Of a stretch of 36,074 bases of DNA, positions 4,015 through 32,419 are shown piece by piece. The stretch's first letter is position 1; every line of letters starts with the position of its first letter. The position numbers were made by a program, and so were the translations under genes. The stretch comes from Pseudanabaena cinerea FACHB-1277 (GTDB lineage Bacteria; Cyanobacteriota; Cyanobacteriia; Pseudanabaenales; Pseudanabaenaceae). The notes beneath the pieces are model-generated. The model did not search any database, was not told where the DNA came from, and was given only the letters and a program-made list of their open reading frames with translations. Location of the stretch: assembly GCF_014696345.1 (NCBI RefSeq), contig NZ_JACJPY010000042.1, positions 1 through 36,074 on the forward strand. The letters run 5' to 3'.

Positions 4015-4286
4015 TCCTCAGCCTGAAAGCTTGAGGATGCTTGGACTCACTATTGTCTGTAGGATGCCTGTAGGACAAGCCCTAGGTCTTACTTAGTGAT
4101 ACCTAGTCTTGCAACTAGCTTCTCAAGCGTGAATTTCCGTATGCCCTACGGTATTTAGCCTATTGTAATATGAAGTCGTGTTGAAAGAACGAGGTTTTAA
4201 GCCAATTTTTCTAATAACTAAGCCTAGAGAAATTTTGAAAGCTACGTTTTTGCTTATATCCATTACCTAGATATTTTTAAGAATAG

Positions 4287-5792
4287 TTAAGATAGCCTCA
4301 AATCAATGTAAGCAGTATCATGGCTGGCTGATACTAAGGTTTCTTGACCTGCGGTTAGGGCTTGTGGTGGCTCGACAATATGCACAGCCTGCATCCAGCA
4401 AGTATCTTGATTGAAAGGACTGGTATCTAGATAGATTTCATCATCTAGCCAGAGGCGAAACCAAAAGGCGATCGCATGGCAGTGACCACTATTGGTAATC
4501 TGCACCGCAATTTCACGAGATTCAGGTTCAATATTTGCGCCACAAAAATCAAAATCAAAGACTTCAAAGGGTTGGCAGAGGGTTGTGTACTTAAAGTTAC
4601 GCAAGTACAACTGCAAGTATTCCGATTTTTTAGAAAAAGCATTAAACAAACTCAGATCGAAGCCCGAGACGATATTCACGCGATCCTCATGGAATATTTG
4701 GCTGCTATCCACTAGCACGGCATAGACAGTTGCTGACTTGGGAATAATTTGGGCATTGGGCTTAAGTAAATGTTCCCTTGCGTGACGAATAGAAGCAACC
4801 GCATATTCCGCCAAAAGCCCCACATCAAAGATTTCACTCACTAAAATGTCGGCGTGATCGCTTAAATCTACGCCAACTTGCAAATCATTGGACAATTTAT
4901 TAAAAGTCGTGATCTGGTGACTATAGCCATTCGCCTCGACAATCCGCCGCGCCATATTCGCCACCACCTGCACCTTCTCACAGGTATATACCTGCTTTGC
5001 ACCCGCCCTTGCCGCCATCAGCGCCAACAGACCAGAACCAGAGCCAATATCTAAAACCACTGATTCAGACTTGACCGCCTTCCGCAAAGCTTGCTCATAG
5101 CAATTATTGCGATAGGTGTCATTCATCATTGGGAAATGCCAACGGGGAACAAAGCGGTTATAGATTTTGTTGAGTTTTTCCGATAAGTCTGGCAGATCGG
5201 GGTTGAGGTTATGGGCATTTTCATAGCAGCCGATCGCTTCTTCAAACTGACTTTGGATCGCGAAGCAATTACCAAGATTGCAGTAGGCCTCGGCATATTC
5301 AGGCTTATGGGCGATCGCCTGCTGAAAATACTGCCCTGCCAAGGCATAGTTACAACGATCGTAGGCAATATTACCGAGTTCTAGCATGGCTGCCGCTAGT
5401 TCAGGGTTGATCTCGATCGCTTTTTGAAATGCTAATTCAGCATCACTTGTCTGCAAGCGATCGCGCAGTGTATACCCATACTCTAGATAAAAATCTGCAT
5501 ATTCCACTTCAATTTCTAAAGTGTCTTGATAGTAAGCAAAGGCTTGATCTAATACCTGATTTTGTGATTCCCCAAGACCACCAGAAGCAGGTGCAACCAA
5601 TATAACATCAGGGTCATAATATTCTGCGGCGTATTGATGTCGAATCTCAATAGTCCGATCATAGGCAGCGATCGCCTCTTGCCAATTTGCTTGCTGATAA
5701 CAAAACCTTGCCAGACGCAGCCAGACTTGATCATCACAGGAATTCATTTCCGCTTGCTGCTTAAGGGCTTGCAAAGATATTGCTTCTAGCAT
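4287..5792 (-). CDS. TPR protein fused to a PRMT9-like protein arginine methyltransferase domain
   Basis: A 501-aa protein. Residues about 20-210 contain tetratricopeptide repeats (units ending IEINPELAAAMLELG and AHKPEYAEAYCNLG). Residues about 216-501 are a class I S-adenosylmethionine methyltransferase of the PRMT type: a WHFPMMNDTYRN segment before motif I, motif I VLDIGSGSGLL (246-256), the acidic ribose-binding residue E272, and a double-E loop SEIFDVGLLAE with E320 and E329, the pair that binds the substrate guanidinium. The C-terminal half is mostly beta, like the PRMT beta barrel. TPRs before a PRMT core match eukaryotic PRMT9. Expected role: methylating arginine in a partner protein held by the TPRs; the target is unknown. 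It is cytoplasmic, with no signal peptide. Confidence 0.8.
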   Translation of the reverse strand: MLEAISLQALKQQAEMNSCDDQVWLRLARFCYQQANWQEAIAAYDRTIEIRHQYAAEYYDPDVILVAPASGGLGESQNQVLDQAFAYYQDTLEIEVEYADFYLEYGYTLRDRLQTSDAELAFQKAIEINPELAAAMLELGNIAYDRCNYALAGQYFQQAIAHKPEYAEAYCNLGNCFAIQSQFEEAIGCYENAHNLNPDLPDLSEKLNKIYNRFVPRWHFPMMNDTYRNNCYEQALRKAVKSESVVLDIGSGSGLLALMAARAGAKQVYTCEKVQVVANMARRIVEANGYSHQITTFNKLSNDLQVGVDLSDHADILVSEIFDVGLLAEYAVASIRHAREHLLKPNAQIIPKSATVYAVLVDSSQIFHEDRVNIVSGFDLSLFNAFSKKSEYLQLYLRNFKYTTLCQPFEVFDFDFCGANIEPESREIAVQITNSGHCHAIAFWFRLWLDDEIYLDTSPFNQDTCWMQAVHIVEPPQALTAGQETLVSASHDTAYIDLRLS

Positions 5793-24219: not shown

Positions 24220-26280
<2,061 letters not shown>

Positions 26281-29171: not shown

Positions 29172-29828
29172 TTACTGGCAATATTTTGTGACATCTTCGC
29201 CTCTATCCGCCAAGTAATTGAGCGCTCGAAAGCGCAAACCCACTAGTTGATCGTAGAGTGGGTTGATTTCGCACATGGCGGGGATGTGCATAATTTTACG
29301 CCCAAATAGCTTAACATCACGCTCAAAGGGGCATTGGGCTGGAATAACTTTACAGATCAAATTTGCGAGTTTGGCATCGTGGATATCGAGATGATCGAGC
29401 CAATCTTTTACAGGATTGAGCAGATCGGGGTGATGTTCTTCATGGTGTGCTGCTGATTGTAGTTTTTGCCTCAGCTCATTTATGGCTGTGATCTCTTGAT
29501 GGAGCGCTCTAGAAAATTCTTGAATCACTTGGTCCTCACTATCAGTGTACTGTCCGTCCGCCAGTGCCATCATGACTGCCATTCTCAAAAAATTCTGCGC
29601 GATCGCAGGATCTTTGCCCAACCCATCCGCTAACTCTGCGGCGCTGATTGGAGGGTAATCGGAGAAGTTTGCACCTTCTTCTAACTCTTCGCTATGGCTG
29701 AGTTGATCGAATAAGGTGCGTTCTTGCTCGCTATAGTCATTGTCGGCAAGGGCGACACTCATGAGTCCACGCAGCCAAGCTGTGATTTGAGTTGAGGTAT
29801 AGGGTGAATGTTGTGTTTTCATAGCCAA
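29172..29828 (-). CDS. TerB-like protein with Mo-dependent nitrogenase C-terminal domain
   Basis: A 218-aa protein with two parts. Residues about 12-115 are helical and resemble the TerB/TerB-like fold (GLMSVALADNDYSEQERTLF, then MAVMMALADGQYTDSEDQVI, the paired acidic repeats of that fold). Residues about 150-215 fit the Mo-nitrogenase C-terminal domain found throughout cyanobacteria (LICKVIPAQCPFERDVKLFG, HIPAMCEINPLYDQL, FRALNYLADR). Despite its name, this domain occurs in strains that do not fix nitrogen, and its job is unknown. Three Cys sit in this part (C164, C173 and C194 by count), and a final Cys near the C-terminus. The DUF3611 gene follows 15 nt downstream. Confidence 0.7.
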   Translation of the reverse strand: MAMKTQHSPYTSTQITAWLRGLMSVALADNDYSEQERTLFDQLSHSEELEEGANFSDYPPISAAELADGLGKDPAIAQNFLRMAVMMALADGQYTDSEDQVIQEFSRALHQEITAINELRQKLQSAAHHEEHHPDLLNPVKDWLDHLDIHDAKLANLICKVIPAQCPFERDVKLFGRKIMHIPAMCEINPLYDQLVGLRFRALNYLADRGEDVTKYCQ

Positions 29829-29962: not shown

Positions 29963-30109
29963 GGATGGCGAATCATAAGAAAACCATTAAGCGCTATACA
30001 AAGCAAAGCCTTCCATGTTTTTCATGATTGGGAATTGGGTGATTTGCGCTGCAATGTAAGGGGCGACAGCTATACTTGATTAGCACTGCTCAATCATTGT
30101 TTGAATACT

Positions 30110-32419
30110 ATGGGCTATGAGCCGTTACACCACAAATATCGCCCCCAAACCTTTACAGATCTAGTCGGACAGGAGGCGATCGCCCATACCCTAGCAAATG
30201 CGCTGAATACTAAGCGGATCGCTCCTGCATATCTATTTACAGGCGCACGCGGCACTGGCAAAACCTCTAGTGCGCGGATCATGGCAAAGTCGCTCAATTG
30301 CCTTAGTTTTGACCATCCCACGCCTCACCCCTGTGGCAAGTGTGAGCTATGCCACAGCATCACCAATGGCAATGCCCTCGATATTACGGAAATTGACGCT
30401 GCCAGCAATACAGGCGTTGATAACATTCGGGAGTTGATCGAACGTGCCCAATTTGCCCCAGTCAAGGCAAGGTTTAAGGTCTATATTATTGACGAATGTT
30501 TGACGGGGGATACCCTTGTGCAGACTGATCTCGGTTTAATTCGTTTAGATGATCCATCTTTGTTAGGCAAACAGGTTTTAAGCTATGACGAGCAGACTGA
30601 AAAATGGGAGTACAAAAAAGTTTTGCGTTGGCTAGATCGTGGCATTAAACCAACTTTAATTATTAAAACCAATCAGCAGTCTATTCAATGTACAGGCAAT
30701 CACCTAATCAGGACTCACCTAGGATGGATCAAAGCAAGCAACATCAAAGCTGGGATGAGCATTTTGTCACCTGTGCCTGTGGAGAGGGTCGAATCTGTAA
30801 CCCTCGTTGGTGAAGAAAGAGTTTATGACATTGAGGTTGAGGATAATCATAATTTTGTGGCGAATGGATTGTTAGTGCATAACTGTCATATGTTAAGTAC
30901 CGCAGCATTCAATGCCCTTTTAAAAACCCTCGAAGAGCCACCCGATCGCGTTACTTTTATCCTTGCCACCACCGATCCACAGCGCGTATTACCGACTATT
31001 ATTTCCCGTTGTCAGCGTTTTGACTTTCGGCGCATTCCCCTTGATGCGATGGTACAGCACTTAGGGAAGATTGCAAAGAATGAGAATATTAATATTAATT
31101 TAGAAGCAATTACTCTAGTGGCACAGATCTCGCAGGGGGGACTGCGGGATGCGGAATCTTTGCTGGATCAATTGAGTTTGGTGGATGGCGAAATTAATGT
31201 CGGTGCGGTTTGGGATTTGGTCGGCTCAGTGCCAGAACAGGACTTACTGTCACTGGTGGAGGCGATCGCCAGCGATCATGCCACTGACCTCATCGACTAT
31301 GGGCGCAGGATTATGGATCGCGGTCGCGAACCTTTGATCGTGTTGCAGAACCTCGCCAATGTCTATCGTGATTTATTAATTGCCAAAACCGCCAGCGATC
31401 GCAGTGACTTAGTGGCGATGACTAGTGACGGTTGGCAGCGCCTAGTGCAGCTTGCCCAAGCTTTAGCCATTCCCCAAATCCTGCATGGTCAACAACACTT
31501 GCGATCGGCAGAATTCCAAATTCGCAACTCCACTCAACCACGACTTTGGTTAGAAATTACGCTCATGGGTTTATTGCCATCGGCAGCGATCGCCCCTATG
31601 CAATCCCATCAAGCCGCGATCGCGCCTCCACTGAATGTTAATCGCCCACCCATTGCCCAACGTCCAAATAATCCGTTACCTGCTGCGACTCCACCAGCGA
31701 TCGCCGCGCCACCATCAGTTGCACCATCAGTTGCACCATCAGTTGCGCCAATAACTCCAACCACCCCTGTCAGCAGCCCTTCTCCAATTAGCGCAGCTCC
31801 TATTCTCAACCCAGAAACTCCTCCTCTTTCTGAAACTCCATTATACTCAGGAGATGATGATCTTGAAGACTTTGCTGGCATCGGCTATGACCTCGCTCAA
31901 GTCTGGCAGAATGTTCTTGCGATCATGCAACCATCGACCAAAGCTTTACTAATTCACACTATGAAAGCGTTTGTGATGGGTATTGAACATCAAACTGTGA
32001 GAATATGTCTTGCGGTGGAACGGAGTAACCAAATTGAAAATCATGCCAAAGAGAAGCGGAATGAATTAGAGTCTGCGTTTTCTAGAGTCCTGCAAAGGTC
32101 AGTCAAGGTGGCTTTTCGCTGCGATCCTCATGCTGTCGCAACCACAACTAGCCCAACGCCTAACCCACCTACTGTAAATCGTGCAGCGATCGCACCACCA
32201 CCATTTAATCCCAATCCACCCAATCCCCAACCATCCTCGCCTTATCCTCCCCAATCTTCATCACCAATTCCGCCCAATCCTCCCGTTAGTAATTCTGCAA
32301 ACAATTCCCAAGGTCATTCTCCTAGTCCCGCTTTCACTCCACTGTCATCAGAGGATATGGTGATTAGAAATGTGGCAGAGTTCTTTAATGGGCAAATTGT
32401 TGATTTGGAAGATAGCTAG
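30110..32419 (+). CDS. dnaX: DNA polymerase III subunit gamma/tau, with an intein
   Basis: A 769-aa precursor of the clamp-loader ATPase. MGYEPLHHKYRPQTF is the standard N-terminus, so ATG 30110 is preferred over TTG 30101. It has Walker A GARGTGKT (45-52), four zinc-binding Cys (64, 75, 78, 81), Walker B YIIDE, then a mini-intein (130-258), then CHML to complete the DExH box, sensor 1 LATTD, the SRC motif ISRCQRFDF, and sensor 2 GGLRDAE. After splicing the protein would be 640 aa. The C-terminal region is rich in Pro, Ala and Ser with a repeated VAPS unit (12-bp repeats near 31712-31749). With SSB and polymerase partners it loads the beta clamp. It is probably essential, so splicing must be efficient. 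Confidence 0.95.
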   Translation: MGYEPLHHKYRPQTFTDLVGQEAIAHTLANALNTKRIAPAYLFTGARGTGKTSSARIMAKSLNCLSFDHPTPHPCGKCELCHSITNGNALDITEIDAASNTGVDNIRELIERAQFAPVKARFKVYIIDECLTGDTLVQTDLGLIRLDDPSLLGKQVLSYDEQTEKWEYKKVLRWLDRGIKPTLIIKTNQQSIQCTGNHLIRTHLGWIKASNIKAGMSILSPVPVERVESVTLVGEERVYDIEVEDNHNFVANGLLVHNCHMLSTAAFNALLKTLEEPPDRVTFILATTDPQRVLPTIISRCQRFDFRRIPLDAMVQHLGKIAKNENININLEAITLVAQISQGGLRDAESLLDQLSLVDGEINVGAVWDLVGSVPEQDLLSLVEAIASDHATDLIDYGRRIMDRGREPLIVLQNLANVYRDLLIAKTASDRSDLVAMTSDGWQRLVQLAQALAIPQILHGQQHLRSAEFQIRNSTQPRLWLEITLMGLLPSAAIAPMQSHQAAIAPPLNVNRPPIAQRPNNPLPAATPPAIAAPPSVAPSVAPSVAPITPTTPVSSPSPISAAPILNPETPPLSETPLYSGDDDLEDFAGIGYDLAQVWQNVLAIMQPSTKALLIHTMKAFVMGIEHQTVRICLAVERSNQIENHAKEKRNELESAFSRVLQRSVKVAFRCDPHAVATTTSPTPNPPTVNRAAIAPPPFNPNPPNPQPSSPYPPQSSSPIPPNPPVSNSANNSQGHSPSPAFTPLSSEDMVIRNVAEFFNGQIVDLEDS
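30497..30883 (+). other. 129-aa mini-intein in DnaX
   Basis: Bases 30497-30883 encode 129 residues that interrupt YIIDE/CHML. The first residue is Cys (block A, CLTGDTLVQT), block B holds T66-x-x-H69 (CTGNHLI), block F has VYDIEVEDNHNF, and block G ends NGLLVHN with penultimate His and final Asn, followed by extein Cys. These are all residues needed for class 1 splicing. The homing endonuclease domain is absent; a short linker (about residues 91-106) bridges the two halves. The same site and start are seen in the Synechocystis DnaX intein, which is 430 aa. Confidence 0.95.

Follow-up and report, generated by a model that had tools for sequence, protein, structure and literature searches.

The dnaX gene of Pseudanabaena cinerea FACHB-1277, located in the 36,074 nucleotides of contig NZ_JACJPY010000042.1 (contig C117 of our 4.77-Mb genome G000; this whole stretch is referred to as the window), contains 129 codons that divide the Walker B motif of the clamp-loader ATPase DnaX. 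The locus raises the question of what this insert is and by what route so small an element came to occupy this site. From comparisons of sequences and predicted structures, we consider it very probable that the insert is a self-excising mini-intein derived by deletion from an intein with a LAGLIDADG homing-endonuclease gene nested in its +2 frame; both splicing and homing are predictions.

The intein in the Walker B motif of DnaX

The open reading frame (ORF) of dnaX occupies 30101-32419 on the plus strand (772 codons), and the whole ORF matched the DnaX model PRK14948 (2.4e-231). Its N-extein (30101-30496), which starts at TTG 30101 or at ATG 30110, three codons on, ends with the VYIIDE of Walker B. 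The insert follows at 30497-30883 (ORF residues 133-261), and the C-extein (30884-32419) runs from Cys+1, the first residue of CHMLST, through the tau C-terminal region to the stop codon. The insert has Cys at residue 1, the block B motif TxxH as TGNH at residues 66-69 (30692-30703; the sole TxxH), and His128-Asn129 at the C-terminal splice junction (30878-30883), with Cys directly after. Class-1 inteins splice by an acyl shift at Cys1, transesterification at Cys+1 and cyclisation of the terminal Asn, here Asn129. The insert matched Intein_splicing of Pfam (5.8e-15) and intein_Cterm (1.8e-10) and intein_Nterm (1e-6) of NCBIfam; the Pfam and NCBIfam matches were to the splicing domain only, and no endonuclease domain was found in the 129 residues. 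The best PDB sequence match in a phmmer search was 7cfv, the Spl DnaX mini-intein (1.1e-44). An AlphaFold model of the insert (pLDDT 93.2) had the same entry as its top Foldseek match (TM 0.88, rmsd 1.5) and, overlaid on 7cfv, has the Hint (intein) fold. As judged from its motifs, fold and homologues, the mini-intein would excise from the DnaX precursor and rejoin Walker B, leaving a DnaX of 643 amino acids (aa) if translation starts at TTG 30101, or of 640 aa if it starts at ATG 30110. The coordinates, the Pfam, NCBIfam and PDB matches and the model agree, and they uphold the original prediction of a 129-aa mini-intein in Walker B with each of these splicing residues, no endonuclease domain and, if ATG 30110 is the start, a spliced host of 640 aa. 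On this evidence the insert is classified as a class-1 mini-intein in Walker B of DnaX and, as a mini-intein, is ordinary.

The distribution of DnaX inteins was examined in a phylum sample of 386 genomes, in which an intein at this site was counted from matches at E 6.5e-33 or better. Thirty-two genomes had one (all 32 were extracted): 21 inteins were up to 200 aa, one was 229, one was 339 and nine were 430 aa. Among 26 genomes of the same genus, its own included, dnaX was matched in 24; G021 and G023, the two lacking a match, are 82% and 93% complete. The 24 genes comprised 8 with mini-inteins (129-146 aa), 3 with inteins of 376 aa and 13 free of an intein, of which 12 were checked by translation and the fragment in G024 was read from adjoining matches. 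These 13 genes indicate that the segment is an insertion and no regular part of DnaX, as had been predicted. A scan of GTDB contigs added 68 cyanobacterial loci to the phylum and genus samples, and all 68 inteins begin at the DE/C junction in DnaX. From 185 loci, the parser recognised DnaX in 146 (129 with an intein, 15 empty and 2 with no end). There were 88 distinct inteins, whose common insertion site is a product of how the parser was built; identical copies, empty genes, L057 (contig end) and L062 (broken intein frame) fell outside this set, as did L017, L030, L032 and L066, whose N-extein motif was missed by the search pattern and all four of which have shortened endonuclease remnants. 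The 88 range from 129 to 452 aa (43 up to 200 aa, 7 of 201-300 and 38 longer) with many different internal deletions, and the full-length forms are 30 of exactly 430 aa and 3 of 376 aa. In L062, from a Prochloron didemni metagenome-assembled genome, short tandem repeats take the place of the intein spacer, possibly through an assembly error.

The window intein had been thought close in length to the shortest natural inteins (Mth RIR1, 134 aa). The smallest of the 88 inteins are indeed of 129 aa, but this length is reached by three of them (L001, L009 from Snowella and L162), and a 128-residue gp41-1 intein chain is present in the PDB; the idea of a record was dropped. A review names Mxe GyrA as the smallest known intein (PMC7765530).

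A further proposal was that splicing acts as a condition-dependent gate on DnaX activity, and hence on replication, and that the intein has been retained for this reason. With Walker B interrupted, DnaX should be inactive until it is spliced, and conditional splicing has been published for inteins in other replication proteins, mycobacterial DnaB among them (PMC6195587, PMC7360933). However, 13 of the 24 same-genus dnaX genes do without the intein, its presence is scattered among close relatives, and the DE/C site is common to the phage helicase inteins described below, which fits a homing target and explains the choice of site equally well. We obtained no positive evidence of a gate, although no search aimed at regulatory signals was made. 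Gating is very unlikely to be the reason for the presence of this intein.

The +2-frame gene of the long DnaX inteins

In the 376- and 430-aa inteins whose translations were printed, no LAGLIDADG motif was seen in the intein frame. Instead, the intact ones have a +2 ORF of 284-347 codons with two LAGLIDADG motifs; in L048 this ORF is split by a stop. In the 430-aa relative L042 the ORF lies at 4228-5232, and carriers of a 430-aa form include Microcoleus vaginatus. Among the 38 inteins longer than 300 aa, motif 1 was found in the +2 frame of 37 and motif 2 (WWxxDD) in that of 36, as AWW in 33 and TWW in 3. The +2 frame was stop-free over the tested interval in 34 of the 38, and the third frame had 11-27 stops in each. 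The exceptions are L039, L048 and L055, with one internal +2 stop each, and L061 with 19. The last is a 384-aa intein of Richelia intracellularis HH01 in which the intein frame is open and the hidden gene is dead, and it can serve as a natural control.

The +2 product matched LAGLIDADG_2 (PF03161) of Pfam in three of three tested cases (E 7.8e-20 to 2.4e-21). D138 and D237/D238, which we take to be the catalytic acids, are invariant across 19 aligned copies, and a model of the enzyme (pLDDT 83.5) gave I-WcaI and I-SceI as the top Foldseek matches (TMt 0.71-0.75). By sequence and fold, the hidden gene of these relatives encodes an I-SceI-type LAGLIDADG_2 enzyme, and cleavage of dnaX is predicted. 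More distant relatives of the endonuclease (L192-L197) are 24-30% identical. A group I intron as the home of these was unsupported, with no Rfam match at gathering scores for L192-L197 or for the viral loci L198-L203. A search of 72,556 plasmid records for the enzyme gave one weak match (25.8%, in an RNA ligase gene), and no relative of the endonuclease of L042 was found in G000, the genome of the window.

Substitution patterns were compared between frames. Variability within the intein codon, taken over the 30 gapless inteins of 430 aa, peaks at position 3 in the flanks and at position 2 in the spacer, where it is about 0.45 against 0.15 and 0.25 at the others. Over codons 101-385, mean pairwise identity was 0.67 in +2 and 0.44 in both remaining frames. 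Nine non-overlapping close pairs gave 654 spacer substitutions, of which 369 left the +2 product unchanged, against 159 expected, and 118 left the intein protein unchanged, against 160 expected; apparent new stops numbered 6 in the intein frame (31 expected) and 6 in +2 (37.5 expected). None of the 30 inteins has an intein-frame stop in the spacer, against a mean of 5.8 expected from the enzyme protein and codon use (P of none 0 to 0.04 each). This openness is partly ascertained, since extraction required an open frame; an endonuclease-led search of the phylum sample, which is free of such bias, found a near-full relative in 9 genomes, in all 9 of them inside a DnaX intein with an open intein frame. 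These results indicate that the full-length spacer is read in two frames and that selection acts in the +2 frame of the relatives, as far as sequence comparison can tell.

The hidden ORF starts with an ATG that overlaps the Gly76-Trp77 codons in 33 of 33 cases, outside which stand L037 (431 aa; GGG at the fixed offset) and L061 (not intact there, 4 codons). At this ATG, third-position variability drops from 0.465 to 0.206 in the 30 full-length forms and only from 0.495 to 0.434 in 42 mini-inteins (L167 was omitted from the codon tables); the weaker constraint in the latter is expected if constraint lapses after loss of the enzyme. As a point against the proposed nested gene, Shine-Dalgarno-like 4-mers before the ATG are not enriched (14 of 33 full-length forms versus 24 of 42 mini-inteins), and a start led by such a motif was rejected.

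Two other explanations of the +2 ORF were considered. One is that ribosomes reading the precursor shift to −1 and so produce the endonuclease, with no internal initiation; +2 equals −1, and this route needs no Shine-Dalgarno motif. We regard it as unlikely, because the +2 constraint starts at the ATG, the ATG is present in all 33 cases, and a +2 stop lies 2-9 codons upstream in 25 of the 33 and 12-29 codons upstream in the other 8. The other is that the ORF reflects chance openness or a dead relic and not a selected gene, to which the lack of an enriched ribosome-binding site, the stops in L039, L048, L055 and L061, and the loss of the middle of the gene from L170 would all be congenial. Such an origin is extremely improbable, given that the substitutions obey the +2 code, that Pfam and fold matches lead to LAGLIDADG enzymes with invariant Asp residues, that all nine near-full relatives in the phylum sample sit in a DnaX intein, and that phage inteins, too, have related genes out of frame. 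The endonuclease of the long forms is best described, from its sequence, as a separate overlapping gene and not as a domain of the intein.

Descent of the mini-inteins

The mechanism that we propose starts from a DnaX intein with a distinct I-SceI-type LAGLIDADG gene nested in +2 and started at an internal ATG; in such full-length forms the intein frame across the nested gene is a stop-free but otherwise little constrained spacer. Repeated in-frame deletions would then have removed the middle of the nested gene, giving mini-inteins in which its two ends are joined out of frame. For most mini-inteins this origin follows from comparison, and for the window intein the exact parent is one that we infer. 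The +2 reading of most mini-inteins consists of the N-terminus of the enzyme joined to its C-terminus, with widely varying breakpoints; 35 of 43 fit a loose pattern that marks the hidden gene's 3' end, and 28 of 43 the CxCG pattern of its 5' end. Some of the events are recent: L170 and L011 share 432 identical nucleotides, and their sole difference is a 585-bp deletion. In Microcystis, the splicing-domain proteins of L056 (430 aa) and L028 (148 aa) are identical. Most mini-inteins look like internal deletions of the hidden gene, with that of the window among the most completely trimmed.

No complete +2 endonuclease ORF is present in the window, only a likely relic of 29 codons followed by a stop (30724-30813), which begins at the ATG in the Gly76-Trp77 codons. 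It reads MDQSKQHQSWDEHFVTCACG up to the presumed deletion junction and EGRICNPRW and a stop after it, or in full MDQSKQHQSWDEHFVTCACGEGRICNPRW and the stop. The 20 residues at its start and the 9 at its end look like the termini of the relatives' endonuclease, and its stop falls where theirs does. Alignment with the 376-aa intein of L134 gave a 741-bp deletion with 4 bp (TGGA, 30780-30783) common to both breakpoints; the position of this predicted junction is approximate, because identity to L134 outside it is only 79%.

Could the window intein instead be an ancestral mini-intein that never had an endonuclease, the hidden gene having entered other lineages later? Several observations lean that way or weigh against descent by deletion. 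The bases of the relic double as conserved intein codons, so that its +2 resemblance is partly automatic and conservation of the intein frame alone can account for much of it; for this reason the relic by itself is only suggestive. The microhomology at the junction was not seen with L135 as the reference. The 3' pattern is missing from 8 of the 43 mini-inteins, that of the window included (it keeps the last 9 residues only), and five of these 8 (L114, L162, L166, L167 and L184) have no clear relic. In the intein tree, the 376-aa forms belong to a subclade that does not include L001 and L005, and the tree itself, built on 125 columns, has support under 80 at 40 of its 81 inner branches. An ancestral mini-intein is nevertheless improbable. 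The window +2 frame joins endonuclease-like first and last segments with the stop at the matching place, and the six other distinct mini-inteins of the genus all keep extra 3' endonuclease codons, so that descent from an endonuclease-bearing form is the better reading for the window as well. Furthermore, the window intein lies within the Pseudanabaena clade of the tree, its nearest named relatives being mostly Pseudanabaena, and the next row outside this clade is the 430-aa intein of L168 (support 89). The relic, the junction and the relatives together suggest that the window intein descends from a hidden-endonuclease intein; it is at most a derivative of that class and not a member of it. The original prediction that it arose from a longer DnaX intein by endonuclease loss therefore stands as to the most likely course of descent and fails as to anatomy, for the part lost would have been a LAGLIDADG_2 ORF in an overlapping frame and not an intein domain.

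We propose that intein-free dnaX is the target of the nested enzyme, which would cleave it at the conserved DNA of Walker B and so bring about the copying in of the element. Same-site empty genes exist among the congeners (the 13 of 24 above), and in the extein tree of the genus (L147 omitted) mini-inteins, full forms and empty genes are intermixed, with 10 changes against a shuffled mean of 9.4. Divergence at four-fold sites was compared in 55 pairs. The 376-aa carriers L135 and L136 differed at 0.22 of such sites within the intein, against 0.56 for the exteins (Fisher 7e-5, for one chosen pair with counts taken from printed rates). The window intein speaks less for mobility: its divergence is not clearly below that of the exteins against 9 of 10 congeners, the exception being L133 (0.35 in the intein versus 0.57 in the exteins). 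Because these rates are similar, recent transfer is not claimed for it.

Some neighbouring and related sequences were noted. Upstream of dnaX, an ORF on the minus strand (29172-29828) has TerB and Mo-nitro_C (Mo-dependent nitrogenase C-terminus) domains, and a gyrB-like gene of 671 aa (24265-26280) gave no intein match in the Pfam scan. Elsewhere in the genome, a 241-aa ORF on contig G000:C4 (L002 1057-1782, minus strand) is a partial tau paralogue: part of it shares 72% identity with residues 592-681 of DnaX from the window, in the tau C-terminal DnaA_N-like domain. On G000:C179 (10395-11471) there are two Intein_splicing matches, one of which runs through seven stops.

Phage inteins and comparison with known systems

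Twenty-one viral loci with endonuclease relatives were examined (L202, L205 and L221-L224, re-fetches or copies, were not counted; L213 and L215 have the same matched stretch). In five of them the endonuclease is out of frame within a longer stop-free ORF, in +2 in L198, L200 and L204 and in +1 in L201 and L203; in four it is in frame in an ORF of more than 450 codons, and 12 show neither arrangement. Host-frame stops were 0 in all five out-of-frame loci against 2.2-10.3 expected (P 0.08 for L200 and 0.008 or less for the other four). L198 and L200 encode ResIII helicases in which Intein_splicing scored above the cut-off, L203 is a GpA terminase with an intein match below it, and L201 has a GpA match just below the cut-off, no Pfam intein match and an HN/C end recognised by eye only. 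L198, L200 and L204 are inserted at DE/C, L204 lying outside the Pfam scan of viral hosts. Over 97 aa, the intein of L200 and that of the window share 44% identity, and the endonucleases of the phage helicase inteins are 33-39% identical to that of DnaX.

Of the matches in annotated phages, E. coli phages among them, those in FoX3 and KLEP7 were examined. Xanthomonas phage FoX3 gp40, a 'putative DNA helicase', contains an intein (DE/C...HN/CHH) with a 266-codon +2 LAGLIDADG ORF that is not among the listed features; the RefSeq copy labels the place 'head morphogenesis'. In contrast, the KLEP7 match is, from its coordinates, in the frame of an annotated 'intein-containing RNA ligase'. We also observed a viral helicase arranged as three consecutive ORFs (L199 1986-4674): the helicase with an intein N-half, a LAGLIDADG ORF, and a third ORF with its own ATG, intein C-half motifs and no Pfam match. 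This resembles a split intein with an intervening endonuclease.

It is likely that an intein lineage at Walker B/DExH sites, spanning cyanobacterial dnaX and phage helicases, encodes its homing endonuclease in an overlapping gene of its own instead of in a domain. Such nesting would shield the selfish gene from insertions and deletions (cf. the 30 inteins of exactly 430 aa), keep it out of the spliced protein and make in-frame deletion, which yields mini-inteins, the main route of loss. The +1-frame cases in phage terminase genes suggest a second, independent nesting, and out-of-frame nesting may be a route to split inteins, as in the three ORFs of L199. Splicing and mobility would then be the work of two proteins encoded by a common stretch of an essential gene, and the 88 distinct DnaX inteins show by what steps a natural mini-intein can arise. 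An overlooked endonuclease is predicted in many cyanobacterial dnaX genes and in the isolated phage FoX3, whose record annotates the helicase only.

A DnaX mini-intein of the class seen in the window is already known. The Spl DnaX mini-intein of Spirulina platensis (7cfv) shares its host gene, fold and length class at 58% identity; its chain has 137 residues against 129, the window intein being without seven linker residues before the C-terminal block. The Ssp DnaX intein of Synechocystis PCC 6803, which we take to be 430 aa, is also a DnaX intein and by that length should, when full-length and unlike that of the window, have a +2 endonuclease. Engineered mini and split forms of it splice in Escherichia coli, according to two reports (PMC3443213, PMC3620165). 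The phage helicase inteins (L198, L200, L204; FoX3 gp40) resemble the DnaX inteins in their homologous splicing domain (L200), DE/C site and hidden +2 LAGLIDADG ORF and differ in their host, a helicase by Pfam scan in L198 and L200 and by annotation in FoX3. An out-of-frame HNH insertion in a ShiLan phage methylase was published in 2025; it likewise hides an endonuclease out of frame in a stop-free insertion, but the enzyme is HNH and not LAGLIDADG, and its authors found neither an intein splicing domain nor an intron (PMC11855218). Among the titles and abstract openings listed, none described a LAGLIDADG gene lying out of frame in a DnaX or helicase intein; an earlier mention of the single Synechocystis case is possible, since PMC11855218 cites Gorbalenya on overlapping frames. 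A canonical intein with an in-frame endonuclease occurs in the same genome, in a DnaB-like gene (L120 1-2073, G000:C31), where a splicing domain is accompanied by LAGLIDADG-like motifs (HLIGDG and WVTDG, by eye) that lie in the intein frame, in contrast to those of the long DnaX inteins. In the usual picture, the endonuclease domain is inserted in frame into the splicing domain; the full-length DnaX inteins differ from it in having a nested, out-of-frame gene.

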